Positions 13,949 to 55,494 of a stretch of DNA of 64,000 nucleotides are shown in pieces. Where the stretch lies: positions 310,001 to 374,000 of the forward strand of contig NZ_PJCF01000086.1 in assembly GCF_002835935.1 (NCBI RefSeq), given 5' to 3'. Position numbers and translations under genes: made by a program. The notes under the pieces were generated by a model that did not search any database, was not told where the DNA came from, and worked only from the letters and a program-made list of their open reading frames with translations. This DNA is from Paraglaciecola sp. MB-3u-78. Its GTDB lineage: Bacteria > Pseudomonadota > Gammaproteobacteria > Enterobacterales > Alteromonadaceae. Numbering within the stretch: the stretch's first letter is position 1; each line of letters opens with the position of its first letter.

Positions 13949-14890
13949 TTAGCGATTGTAGGTATCCAAATACAACTGAGTCAAACGTTCATTATCCACT
14001 TTGGTTGCTACATTGATTGTCTGGGCATTGAGCCAATCAGGGCTAGCTGTGGTGTTAGGCAACGCAATTGAGGTTTGGCCAATGTTTAAAGGATCAGTCG
14101 ATACTCTTGCATGGCCGGTTTGCAATCCGAACAAGCTTGGATCGACTAAATGGGCAAGAGGCATAGCATCGTGGAAAAAGCACACATCTTCGTCTCTATT
14201 TTGTGAGTAAAACTTCACGTAAAATTGTGCGGCATCATGCACAAAACCACCTAATTTAGGATTATTTTGTTTAAGCTGAGTTAAAAAATCTGGGCTGAAA
14301 GGGCAAGAGTTGGTGACATCCAAACCGAACATGTTTAGTTCCCATGACGCACCAAACACAATTTCAGCCGCGTATGCGTCGTTCCAAATATTGGCTTCTG
14401 CCACCGGTGTAACGTTACCAGGTACAAACGCAGCACCACCCATCACAGATACTGCCTTGAGCAGGTTAGGCAGTTCAGGTTCAAGACGTAAGGCCAACGC
14501 TAAATTGCCTAATGGGCCAATTGCGACCACAGTGATTTCGCCGGGGTATTTACGTGCCATATCGACTATAAACTGCGCTGAACTGCGTGGGTCTAGTTCA
14601 CCCTTAGCAGGGGGGAAGTTGATATTACCAAAGCCATCATCGCCGTGCACAAAATGTGCATATCCCGACTCTTTTCCTACCCAAGGCATACCAACACCCT
14701 TACATACAGGAATATCTTTGTTAGCCAAGGCACATAAAGTAATCGCATTTTTGGCTGCCATTTCAACAGGCACATTGCCGAATACAGTCGTTAACCCTAG
14801 TACATCGATTTCAGGGTGTTGGAAGGCAAAGAAAATTGCCATTGCATCATCAATACCCGGATCGGTATCTAGTATAATTTTGTGGCTCAT
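13949..14890 (-). CDS. Nucleoside hydrolase (ribonucleoside hydrolase, IUNH family)
   Basis: A 313-residue enzyme that cleaves ribonucleosides to a free base and ribose. The calcium-binding signature DTDPGIDDAMAI is at residues 8-19, TTVFGN follows, and the C-terminal catalytic His lies in FFHDAMPLAHL. Length and motifs are those of RihA/RihB/IunH; which nucleoside is preferred cannot be told. Its ribosome-binding site GGGAGA lies in the last copy of the 86-bp repeat array that separates it from ribokinase. The two genes are in the same direction and form a salvage pair: ribose released here is phosphorylated by RbsK. Confidence 0.92.
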   Translation of the reverse strand: MSHKIILDTDPGIDDAMAIFFAFQHPEIDVLGLTTVFGNVPVEMAAKNAITLCALANKDIPVCKGVGMPWVGKESGYAHFVHGDDGFGNINFPPAKGELDPRSSAQFIVDMARKYPGEITVVAIGPLGNLALALRLEPELPNLLKAVSVMGGAAFVPGNVTPVAEANIWNDAYAAEIVFGASWELNMFGLDVTNSCPFSPDFLTQLKQNNPKLGGFVHDAAQFYVKFYSQNRDEDVCFFHDAMPLAHLVDPSLFGLQTGHARVSTDPLNIGQTSIALPNTTASPDWLNAQTINVATKVDNERLTQLYLDTYNR

Positions 14891-14894
14891 TTAT

Positions 14895-15325
14895 TGTCTC
14901 CCTGAAAGGTTTTGTTAAACGAGAAAACGGTTCACGTCTTCTTTGTTAGGTATAGTATAAATTGCGTCGCACCCATCTAGTGTCTCCCAGAAAGGTTTTG
15001 TTTAGCGAGAAAACGGTTCACGTCTTCTTTATTAGGTATAGTATAAATTGCGGCGCACCCATCTAGTGTCTCCTTGAAAGGTTTTGTTTAGCGAGAAAAC
15101 GATTCACGTCTTCTTTATTAGGTATAGTATAAATTGCGCCGCACCCATCTAGTGTCTCCCTGAAAGGTTATTGTTTAGCGAGAAAACGATTCACGTCTTC
15201 TTTGTTAGGTATAGTATAAATTGCGCCGCACCCATCTAGTGTCTCCCTGAAAGGTTTTGTTTAGCGAGAAAACGATTCACGTCTTCTTTATTAGGTATAG
15301 TATAAATTGCGCCGCACCCATCTAG
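14895..15325. repeat. Five tandem 86-bp copies of the ribokinase 3' end
   Basis: Units begin at 14895, 14981, 15067, 15153 and 15240, with period 86 (one of 87). A sixth, original unit starts at 15326 inside rbsK. In the minus sense each unit runs from ATGGGTGCGGC to GGGAGACACTAG, that is, from the codons for MGAAQ near the end of RbsK through its stop codon. All five extra copies share a 5-base TATAA insertion absent from the gene copy, so they were amplified from one altered unit. Each junction places GGGAG 7 bases before an ATG, giving up to five 14-codon mini reading frames. Confidence 0.93.
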
Positions 15326-16230
15326 TGTCTCCCTGAAAGGTTTTGTTTAGCGAGAAAACGATTCACGTCTTCTTTATTAGGTATAGATTGTGCCGCACCC
15401 ATTTTCATAACGGCCAATGCAGAGGCTGCACAAGCACGAATTAATGCGGTTTTTGAATCGGCATGGTTACTGTAAGCAGATAAAAAATAGCCAATAAATG
15501 TATCGCCTGCTGCTGTTGTATCTACCGCGTCAACTTCAAAAGCGGGCACGTTAATAGTTTTGTCTTTCTTGAGCATACGCACCCCAGCTTTACCCAAAGT
15601 AATCAGTACTTCAGCATGTGGCCAGTCTTGACGAAAGTAGTCTTCCATTTTATCTAAATCTTGGCGCCCAGAGATCTCTTCAGCTTCCACTTCGTTGACA
15701 ATTAATAAATCTATACATTCATGTGGCAGATGTTTGACTGACTCTGTCATAGGTGCAGGGTTAAAGGCTACCTTTAAGCCTTTTGCTTTGGCTTGGCTCA
15801 GCACTTGGTCAATATTGTTGGTTTCATTTTGCGTCAATACCCAATCTGCAGATTTTACAATATCTAATGCATACATGATGTCTTTAGGTGTCATTTCATG
15901 ATTGGCACCGCCAAACAATACTATGGCATTTTCAGCCGAAGGGGTGACTTGAATAATCGCATGGCCAGAAGCGGTTTCAGTACATGTGACATGTTTACAA
16001 TCAATACCATCACGGATCATGGTTTGTTTGAAAGCGACGTCCGTTTCGTTAATCTTACCCACATGGCGAACTTCAGAGCCAGCTCTAGCTAACGCTATGG
16101 ACTGATTCGCTCCCTTTCCGCCCAGTAAACACTGGTAATGGCTGGATGCGATGGTTTCACCGGGCTGAACGAAGTGATCTACCTGATAGACATGGTCGAT
16201 GTTGATTGAACCAAAATTGATAATGGCCAT
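15322..16230 (-). CDS. rbsK: Ribokinase
   Basis: A PfkB-family sugar kinase of 302 residues that phosphorylates ribose to ribose 5-phosphate in the cytoplasm. It shows the N-terminal substrate-binding motif GGKGANQSIALARAG (residues about 38-52) and the ATP/catalytic motif DTTAAGDTFIGYF with the general-base Asp. The TAG stop is directly followed by ATG of the first extra repeat unit. It is transcribed toward the nucleoside hydrolase, and a perfect 12-bp palindrome lies about 90 bases upstream. RbsK versus another pentose or nucleoside kinase of the family is judged by motif and context. Confidence 0.9.
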   Translation of the reverse strand: MAIINFGSINIDHVYQVDHFVQPGETIASSHYQCLLGGKGANQSIALARAGSEVRHVGKINETDVAFKQTMIRDGIDCKHVTCTETASGHAIIQVTPSAENAIVLFGGANHEMTPKDIMYALDIVKSADWVLTQNETNNIDQVLSQAKAKGLKVAFNPAPMTESVKHLPHECIDLLIVNEVEAEEISGRQDLDKMEDYFRQDWPHAEVLITLGKAGVRMLKKDKTINVPAFEVDAVDTTAAGDTFIGYFLSAYSNHADSKTALIRACAASALAVMKMGAAQSIPNKEDVNRFLAKQNLSGRH

Positions 16231-50114: not shown

Positions 50115-50252
50115 TCGTCTTCTCTCAACCTATTCTTGAACGGGATAGTGATTAGGTAGCTACCGAGTATATTTTTGCCTGCACTCATTAAAGGTTTGGC
50201 TTTCTTGCTACTACCTCTCAAAATTTTAAGCATAAATACTTGTAAATTGCAT

Positions 50253-50275
50253 GAAATGTTATATTATAACGTTTC
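50253..50275. promoter_or_regulatory. Zur operator (zinc uptake regulator box)
   Basis: The 23-bp dyad is GAAATGTTATA, a T, then TATAACGTTTC. It differs from the gammaproteobacterial Zur consensus GAAATGTTATAnTATAACATTTC at one position, and the flanking CAT/ATG extends the symmetry to 29 bp. It covers the likely promoter of the MerC-domain gene starting at 50297. Zur with zinc would repress it. The match to the consensus is from memory and direct reading. Confidence 0.85.
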
Positions 50276-50296
50276 ATGAAGTTGAGGTATTTATTA

Positions 50297-50701
50297 ATGC
50301 AAGTAACTAAAGATAAAACGCTGTTTGACCGACTAGGCATTTGGGCCTCCAGTTTGTGTGCGTTGCATTGTCTGTTATTGCCTATTCTCATTCCACTCAT
50401 TCCATTTGTTGGCGCGTCATTTTTTGCTCAGGGTTGGTTTGAAAGAAGCATTTTGTCACTTTCAATGATCATTGGGTTTTGGGCGTTGTTCTCAGGATTC
50501 TATCGTTATCACAGACAGCTTTATCCGTTATACAGTCTAGTATTGGGCGGTATAATTTATTGGAATAAAGATATGTTTGGCGAGTCTTATGAACCTTTCA
50601 CTATTGCTGTTGGTGCCTTTTTAATTGTTGGCGCGCACATAGTGAATTTGAAATTATGTCAGAGCTGCCAAGATTGCGATTCTGGATGTGCTAGCTCTTA
50701 G
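50297..50701 (+). CDS. MerC-domain membrane protein under a Zur box
   Basis: About 134 residues with four membrane helices. The N-terminal helix carries ASSLCALHCLLLPILIP, the MerC-type Cys-x-x-His-Cys metal site, and the C-terminus is Cys-rich (KLCQSCQDCDSGCASS). MerC proper imports mercuric ion, but chromosomal relatives without mer genes have no assigned role. The operator just upstream indicates repression by zinc-loaded Zur, so a zinc-related transport role is more likely. I chose ATG 50297, with GAGG upstream; ATG 50276 overlaps the operator. Its stop overlaps that of the convergent next gene. Confidence 0.85.
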   Translation: MQVTKDKTLFDRLGIWASSLCALHCLLLPILIPLIPFVGASFFAQGWFERSILSLSMIIGFWALFSGFYRYHRQLYPLYSLVLGGIIYWNKDMFGESYEPFTIAVGAFLIVGAHIVNLKLCQSCQDCDSGCASS

Positions 50702-55136: not shown

Positions 55137-55341
55137 ATCATTATGCGGGACAAAATTGTCTGGAACAATTTTGAACATCTGCAAGATGGCCGTAAGGTTG
55201 GAGGCAGGACGCCTCAAATACAAAATTATCTGGAACAATTTTGAACATCTGCAAGATGGCCTGTAAGGTTGGAGGCAGGACGCCTCAAATACAAAATTGT
55301 CTGGAACAATTTTGAACATCTGCAAGATGGCCTGTAAGGCA
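55137..55341. repeat. Truncated tRNA-Gly start and tandem 70-71 bp hairpin repeats
   Basis: ATCATTATGCGGGA at 55137-55150 repeats exactly the leader and first six bases of the real tRNA-Gly at 55412-55425, but the tRNA sequence then stops. It is followed by three units starting at 55151, 55221 and 55292 (the third partial, about 50 bases). Each unit contains CAAAATTGT (or a one-base variant) pairing with ACAATTTTG across a 5-base loop, and full units also have GAGGC pairing with GCCTC. Confidence 0.85.
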
Positions 55342-55419: not shown

Positions 55420-55494
55420 GCGGGAATAGCTCAGTGGTAGAGCACAACCTTGCCAAGGTTGGGGTCGCGAGTTCGAATCTCGTTTCCCGCTCCA
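55420..55494 (+). tRNA. tRNA-Gly (anticodon GCC)
   Basis: The 75-base gene folds as a normal tRNA: acceptor GCGGGAA with TTCCCGC, D-stem GCTC/GAGC, anticodon stem CAACC/GGTTG with loop TTGCCAA, T-stem GCGAG/CTCGT with TTCGAAT, and an encoded TCCA end. The GCC anticodon reads GGC and GGU glycine codons. Confidence 0.97.

Follow-up and report, generated by a model that had tools for sequence, protein, structure and literature searches.

A MerC-domain protein of Paraglaciecola, predicted to be controlled by Zur, is a candidate zinc importer

INTRODUCTION

MerC is named for mercury import, but in Paraglaciecola sp. MB-3u-78 one MerC-domain gene lies outside a mer operon and behind a palindrome that resembles a Zur operator. 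Which metal would such a protein handle, and in which direction would it move it? We addressed this question computationally, starting from the stretch of DNA referred to here as the window (64,000 nucleotides; contig NZ_PJCF01000086.1, positions 310,001 to 374,000). The host genome comprises 6,478,889 bases in 87 contigs and is rated 100% complete, with 2.36% contamination. A preliminary description of the window had proposed a role in zinc import or zinc sparing. In general, a metal site built from thiols only suits mercury, and a site containing His and Glu suits zinc. In the running text of the openly accessible literature searched, no link between MerC and Zur or zinc uptake was found among the matches listed, and none appeared in the excerpts of PMC2770081, PMC6103462, PMC10957091, PMC9817125, PMC12193353, PMC10641926, PMC5786701, and PMC4557270.

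RESULTS

The product of the gene matched the Pfam MerC family (PF03203) at 99.1 bits against a cut-off of 27.6 and over positions 1 to 108 of 108, which bore out its original assignment; at E values up to 1, it matched none of the NCBIfam families, including NF033784 and NF010318. We placed the start codon at ATG 50297 (Table 1) because this codon is kept in 14/14 aligned Paraglaciecola loci and is preceded by TTGAGG. The alternative ATG at 50276 was rejected since, unlike ATG 50297, it is not conserved in these loci. As had been claimed, mer genes are absent from the locus: the seven flanking proteins scanned against Pfam were an M23 peptidase, a polysaccharide deacetylase, a DUF808 protein, GDPD, EamA, phosphatidylserine decarboxylase, and RsgA. 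The MerC-like protein found no match in plasmids and none in viral contigs; no solved structure was matched by sequence, and a Foldseek search with the low-confidence model matched no solved fold (best E value, 1.0). A second MerC gene of the host genome (C23:180452) adjoins a merR-like gene, and its product matched NF033784 at 165 bits (cut-off, 140). Elsewhere, the window contains an 86-bp tandem repeat at 14888 to 15386 (5.8 copies, 96% matching) and a 71-bp tandem repeat at 55150 to 55339 (2.7 copies), which lies just before tRNA-Gly (55420 to 55494) and in which the short open reading frames look spurious.

Table 1. Features of the MerC-like gene and its upstream region, in window coordinates
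Feature	Position	Strand	Remark
Putative −35 element TTGTAA	50240..50245	+	9 of 12, spacer 16; two TTG positions invariant
Zur box GAAATGTTATATTATAACGTTTC, 23-bp imperfect palindrome	50253..50275	.	Genome-unique; kept upstream of orthologues
Putative −10 element TATTAT	50262..50267	+	Sits within Zur box
Putative Shine-Dalgarno sequence TTGAGG	50282..50287	+	One G invariant among aligned loci
MerC-domain protein, 134 aa, zinc type, predicted inner membrane	50297..50701	+	PF03203; stop TAG 50699-50701
CALHC motif, residues 21-25 (C21, H24, C25), helix 1	50357..50371	+	Invariant in alignments A1 and A3; replaced in mercury-type MerC
E49, helix 2 start	50441..50443	+	Clade A, Glu; clades B and C, His
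H114, helix 4	50636..50638	+	Invariant in A1 and A3; Ser in 95% of M-labelled rows
Cys-rich C-terminal tail (C121, C124, C127, C131)	50657..50689	+	Predicted cytoplasmic (side inferred from charges)

The dyad at 50253 to 50275 deviates by a single mismatch from GAAATGTTATANTATAACATTTC, which we take to be the gammaproteobacterial Zur consensus. The preliminary description had rightly seen a near-perfect Zur box in this dyad, but had begun it at 50250, 3 bases too early. At up to three mismatches, the box was the sole match both in the window, where 100 shuffles yielded none, and in the whole genome, where the reversed control pattern gave 0 matches. The proposed overlap with the promoter region also held, with the putative −10 element lying inside the box; the TTGTAA-N16-TATTAT pair (50240 to 50267) came from a promoter scan that returned 2 sites versus 1.5 expected by chance per region. 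Across the aligned Paraglaciecola loci, the conserved footprint consisted of the box core, two TTG positions of the −35 element, a single G within the ribosome-binding site, and the start codon, and it was dominated by the box.

Absence of the box from close relatives had been named beforehand as evidence against Zur control. With a threshold score of at least 17 of 23, however, the box was present ahead of the gene in 20/20 same-genus relatives with upstream sequence, a 21st match at a contig edge being excluded, and in 42 of 45 named family loci, compared with 1/1055 control windows (300 bases each) taken from these loci. The named loci belong to Paraglaciecola, Aliiglaciecola, Lacimicrobium, Bowmanella, Aestuariibacter, Opacimonas, Glaciecola, and unclassified Alteromonadaceae; of the 45, 18 share their DNA with loci of the same-genus set, and the other 27 include 24 with the box. 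Among the three loci below the threshold, one has 30 bases upstream only, one contains the full core with a score of 16, and one scores 15. Gene order around the 45 loci is also conserved (DMT in 44, Psd in 43, and GDPD in 42), and the MerC gene of this lineage, clade A in the tree described below, would therefore be an old resident. Matches to the clade A protein came mostly from Paraglaciecola and its kin, with identity of up to 96%; in one MerC search, 6/77 places were dropped (one at a contig edge, the others fragmentary or unfetched).

A genome lacking a Zur gene had likewise been named as evidence against the proposal, and the host genome has one (C12:184519-184875): it is one of two Fur-family genes, and its best NCBIfam match is Zur NF008646 at 156 bits, with a strict cut-off of 167. 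The exact core of the box, YGTTATANTATAACR, occurs at two places in the host genome, ahead of the MerC-like gene and ahead of a TonB receptor gene, and the reversed control also occurs twice; a looser core pattern was rarer than its control (5 places versus 8). In the 22 genomes of the genus taken together, 59 exact cores were counted versus 14 control matches. The second exact core of the host (C34:374900-374914) lies 30 bases before the receptor gene (L080:6703-8871, strand −) and faces a UPF0149 gene. The receptor has ZnuD as its best NCBIfam match, at 365 bits and far under the strict cut-off of 950, and contains a His/Asp/Glu-rich stretch. Because core counts in the host genome do not exceed the control, the receptor's box rests on conservation, its orthologue being preceded by the core at 29 to 38 bases in 11/19 same-genus relatives examined. 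Taken together, the box, its conservation, and the presence of a Zur gene make Zur control of the MerC-like gene well supported at the level of sequence.

We inspected 35 cores in 34 retrieved loci, one of them in the host genome. For 19 cores, a gene linked to zinc or encoding a TonB receptor lay within range, in two cases by weak TonB similarity only; the remaining 16/35 had no recognised zinc gene in range. Further genes preceded by the core in relatives encode ZigA, an ABC ATPase, and DUF3299. The starts of the ABC ATPase genes (L190:1741-2475 and L197:2525-3271, in G003 and G010) lie 40 and 27 bases downstream of a Zur-like core. In G004, a Zur-like core lies 165 bases before an alkaline phosphatase gene (L210:2662-4242; Pfam, 419.5 bits), which encodes a zinc enzyme; the arrangement is possibly due to chance and possibly zinc linked. 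In G005, G011, and G016, a Zur-like core lies 3 to 4 bases before the ATG of a gene for a 103-aa protein without a Pfam match (L191:2491-2799, L198:2185-2493, and L204:2199-2507), possibly a new zinc-starvation gene.

To place the MerC-like protein among its relatives, we built a tree of 131 MerC proteins by a quick method from few columns and with SH-aLRT support only. It separated a clade M (n = 19; support, 100) on a long branch from clades A (87), B (90), and C (95); the MerC-like protein fell in clade A and the second MerC of the host in clade M. Usable gene context was available for all but 12/131 places. Mer-family neighbours accompanied clade M in 15/15 contexts, as against 0/44 for clade A, 0/49 for clade B, and 0/11 for clade C (0/104 together). 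The 15 contexts of clade M contained MerA in 10, MerR in 9, MerP in 8, and MerT in 5, with MerP and MerT labelled by reading sequences and MerA and MerR confirmed on one protein each. Conversely, tblastn with Zur, ZrgA, COG0523, DUF1826, ZnuD, FolE2, and dihydroorotase queries detected zinc-starvation genes near 42/49 clade B and 12/12 clade C genes, but near 0/19 of clade M and 0/49 of clade A; here, any match to either of the two Zur queries was counted as a Zur neighbour, and some of these neighbours may be Fur. Representatives of ZrgA, ZigA, DUF1826, FolE2, and dihydroorotase passed their Pfam or NCBIfam cut-offs, and a ZrgA homologue was present in 20/49 clade B loci. In L035 (G001), a znuD-like receptor gene is divergent from merC-zrgA-zur-merC, with two clade B MerC genes, and L036 (G017) looks alike.

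Boxes scoring at least 17 were found in 44/49 upstream regions of clade A (including the window gene), 10/12 of clade C, 18/51 of clade B, and 0/19 of clade M. Over all 131 upstream regions, 72 were boxed compared with 23/980 control windows, in which some matches may be true boxes of neighbouring genes. The box and neighbour counts thus describe clade A as an orphan by position that nearly always has its own box, and clade B as residing mostly in zinc clusters. Altogether, of the 112 zinc-type rows outside clade M, 104 were boxed themselves or had a zinc gene at the locus, and 8 had neither.

The two kinds also differ in their residues. We compared 18 zinc-type proteins (alignment A1), the MerC-like protein with 44 named relatives (alignment A3; 45 rows, L170 left out), and 20 M-labelled rows, of which 19 are true clade M members and one, G030_L054, is put in clade A by the tree. 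In the numbering of the 134-aa protein, D11, C21, H24, C25, P29, G85, E99, and H114 are invariant in A1, and C21, H24, C25, E49, H72, E99, H114, and N117 are invariant in A3. In the M-labelled rows, position 21 is mostly Ser/Ala, 24 Gly/Ser, 49 Ile/Val, 114 Ser, and 117 Asp. The helix-1 motif of the mercury type is CxxC-Phe-Pro and that of the zinc type CxxHC. The Cys-His-Cys site and Cys-rich tail noted at the outset are both present, and C121, C124, and C127 of the tail are at least 90% conserved in A3.

AlphaFold predicted four helices (residues 4 to 38, 45 to 72, 76 to 89, and 96 to 127) with low to moderate confidence (pLDDT, 67.6; pTM, 0.53); a hydropathy scan recovered three regions and missed helix 3 at its threshold. 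Since the charges K5, K7, and R12 precede helix 1 and R70 and R73 lie between helices 2 and 3, both termini would be inside. In such an orientation, E49 and E99 would be found at the outer face, whereas CxxHC and H114 would lie within the membrane and H72 and the Cys-rich tail on the cytoplasmic side.

Searches for other zinc importers in the host genome returned 0 matches to ZnuA (PF01297), with 11/14 control genomes giving matches; this absence, like the others reported from genome searches, is based on a loose first pass with a limited number of candidates scored. A box ahead of znuABC, for which a scan had been suggested, cannot exist here because no ZnuA was found. For the ABC-3/ZnuB family (PF00950), a single partial match (21.9 bits) was obtained, in a frame of 352 aa that probably represents another permease type; a same-genus relative (G001) gave a strong ABC-3 permease match. 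The host genome also encodes a ZIP homologue (C12:768683-769387; 82.4 bits), and zinc can therefore enter by another way.

Among 295 genomes of the order, ZnuA was found in 213. Within the host family, 24 sampled genomes gave ZnuA in 1/24, MerC in 23/24, and a ZIP match in 14/24. Zinc-type MerC was present in 33/82 order genomes without ZnuA versus 19/213 with it (Fisher P = 2e-9, relatedness not corrected), six genomes with an over-cut-off but unclassified MerC being counted as not zinc-type. Outside the host family, the difference was weak (11/59 versus 18/212; P = 0.03, relatedness uncorrected). Both ZnuA and zinc-type MerC were carried by 19 genomes, and 14 of the 25 genomes without ZnuA and ZIP matches carried zinc-type MerC. 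The MerC search of the order dropped 11 listed places, mostly weak or fragmentary. Family f7 gives little support because zinc-type MerC occurs in only 4 of its genomes, although no f7 member has a listed ZnuA. Beyond the order, a profile of the 18 zinc-type proteins found matches in 59/398 genomes sampled across the phylum. At the places outside the order examined (41 of 51 listed), CxxHC was present in 41/41, a motif that the profile itself favours, and 27 of 40 such loci had a zinc-starvation gene nearby.

DISCUSSION

We consider it likely that the MerC-like protein is a zinc importer with four helices in the inner membrane and that Zur represses its gene when zinc is plentiful; the importer would perhaps stand in for ZnuABC. 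That Zur binds the dyad, how the protein is oriented in the membrane, that it carries zinc, and that it does so inward are all inferred. Of the two roles offered by the preliminary description, import would fit better than sparing, because the metal-ligand residues are invariant. In the proposed mechanism, zinc-loaded Zur would sit on the dyad, cover the −10 element, and thereby prevent transcription until zinc starvation lifts the repression. The ZnuD-like TonB receptor would bring zinc into the periplasm, from where the MerC-like protein might pass it inward, from Glu49 and Glu99 near the outer face to Cys21, His24, and Cys25 of helix 1 together with His114 of helix 4, and on to the cytoplasmic His72 and Cys tail. 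It is the placement of the ligands and the chemistry of the site that led us to propose such an inward relay. In clade B relatives, its partners would be ZrgA on the outside and the COG0523 chaperone ZigA on the inside, in what might be a zinc counterpart of the MerP-MerC-MerA relay.

Other explanations start from the same data. The dyad could have arisen by chance or could serve another regulator, given that its AT-rich core sits in an AT-rich intergenic stretch and that in the host genome the exact core does not outnumber its control. The full box, however, is unique in the genome, is not expected in shuffles, occurs at 42/45 loci versus 1/1055 windows, and dominates the footprint; across the 22 genus genomes the core exceeds its control (59 versus 14) and also precedes ZnuD-like, DUF3299, and ZigA genes. 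On these grounds we rejected the explanation as scarcely credible. If the box is genuine, it might still be incidental to an ordinary mercury (or cadmium) MerC, as a Pfam MerC domain well above the cut-off would suggest. This reading is very improbable and was rejected as well: the protein has 0 NCBIfam matches at E values up to 1, in contrast to the paralogue in the same genome at 165 bits over a cut-off of 140; the mercury motif is replaced, the protein belongs to a separate clade, and mer-family neighbours number 0/44 in clade A against 15/15 in clade M contexts. In other bacteria, Zur also controls broad metal uptake systems, and a Zur-controlled carrier of some other metal that is scarce or mis-sensed during zinc starvation, such as cobalt or nickel, might be envisaged; CxxHC could hold several metals. 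We regard it as improbable in view of the neighbours of clades B and C, which form the classical zinc set of Zur-type regulators, ZrgA, ZigA, FolE2, dihydroorotase, and a ZnuD-like receptor.

A further alternative concerns the function rather than the metal. The MerC-like protein might be a Zur-regulated membrane zinc chaperone or sensor whose CxxHC motif and Cys tail bind zinc at the inner membrane and hand it over to other proteins or to a separate importer, e.g., ZIP. Its size of merely 134 aa with four predicted helices, the Cys-rich tail, the frequent adjacency of clade B relatives to ZigA-type and ZrgA genes, and the ZIP homologue of the host are all compatible with this role. Against it, the conserved Cys, His, and Glu/His residues lie inside predicted helices, and 14 genomes with zinc-type MerC gave neither ZnuA nor ZIP matches in the loose first-pass search. 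Moreover, excerpts of PMC12193353 present mercury MerC as a transporter, and among characterised proteins it is the closest relative. A chaperone or sensor therefore appears unlikely to us, and zinc import remains the preferred reading.

A broader proposal can be made tentatively. Zinc-type MerC (CxxHC, Glu/His49, and His114) might make up a widespread group of small proteobacterial zinc importers without a name as yet, which in many Alteromonadaceae would be the sole Zur-controlled inner-membrane zinc importer, replacing ZnuABC, and would work in a relay with ZrgA and ZigA. If zinc-type proteins are indeed widespread as importers within such a relay, mercury MerC may be a specialised member of a mainly zinc-handling family. 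The import reading offers a concrete importer candidate, together with a partner receptor, for a marine family in which ZnuA was found in 1/24 sampled genomes. If true, it would add a new type of small transporter to zinc uptake and suggest how a handful of ligand substitutions could shift a fold from one metal, zinc or mercury, to the other. In many genomes, genes named for mercury resistance are probably zinc-starvation genes, and their names would mislead surveys of metal resistance.

Among known systems, the closest is mercury MerC (NF033784, PF03203), which shares with the zinc type the Pfam domain, a similar size, a proposed inward metal relay, and Cys residues both within helix 1 and, for most rows, close to the C terminus. 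The zinc type differs in lying outside a mer operon, in having no NCBIfam MerC match, and in forming its own clade; it has CxxHC rather than CxxC-Phe-Pro, as well as Glu/His49, His114, and Asn117, and a Zur box rather than an adjoining MerR-type regulator. We thus see a known domain with a different regulator and different ligands, and probably with a different metal. ZIP proteins (ZupT, PF02535) take up zinc at the inner membrane as single proteins; they belong to a different family, and the host ZIP frame of 275 aa, compared with 134 aa here, has no exact box core. ZnuABC is described as the Zur-repressed zinc uptake system of the inner membrane in excerpts of PMC9817125, the very function proposed for the MerC-like protein. 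The latter comes from an unrelated family, has no ATPase or periplasmic binding subunit among its seven scanned neighbours, and in its zinc-type form is commoner where ZnuA is missing. ZrgABCDE of Vibrio also belongs to the Zur regulon, with ZrgA corresponding to DUF2796 and ZrgE to DUF3299 (excerpts of PMC9817125), and a ZrgA homologue recurs at clade B MerC loci; in contrast, the Vibrio operon has an ABC ATPase and a permease, and no MerC-like gene is listed in those excerpts. Finally, the receptor behind the second core of the host resembles the TonB receptor ZnuD (excerpts of PMC4557270), which is no relative of MerC and is likened here as the proposed outer-membrane partner.
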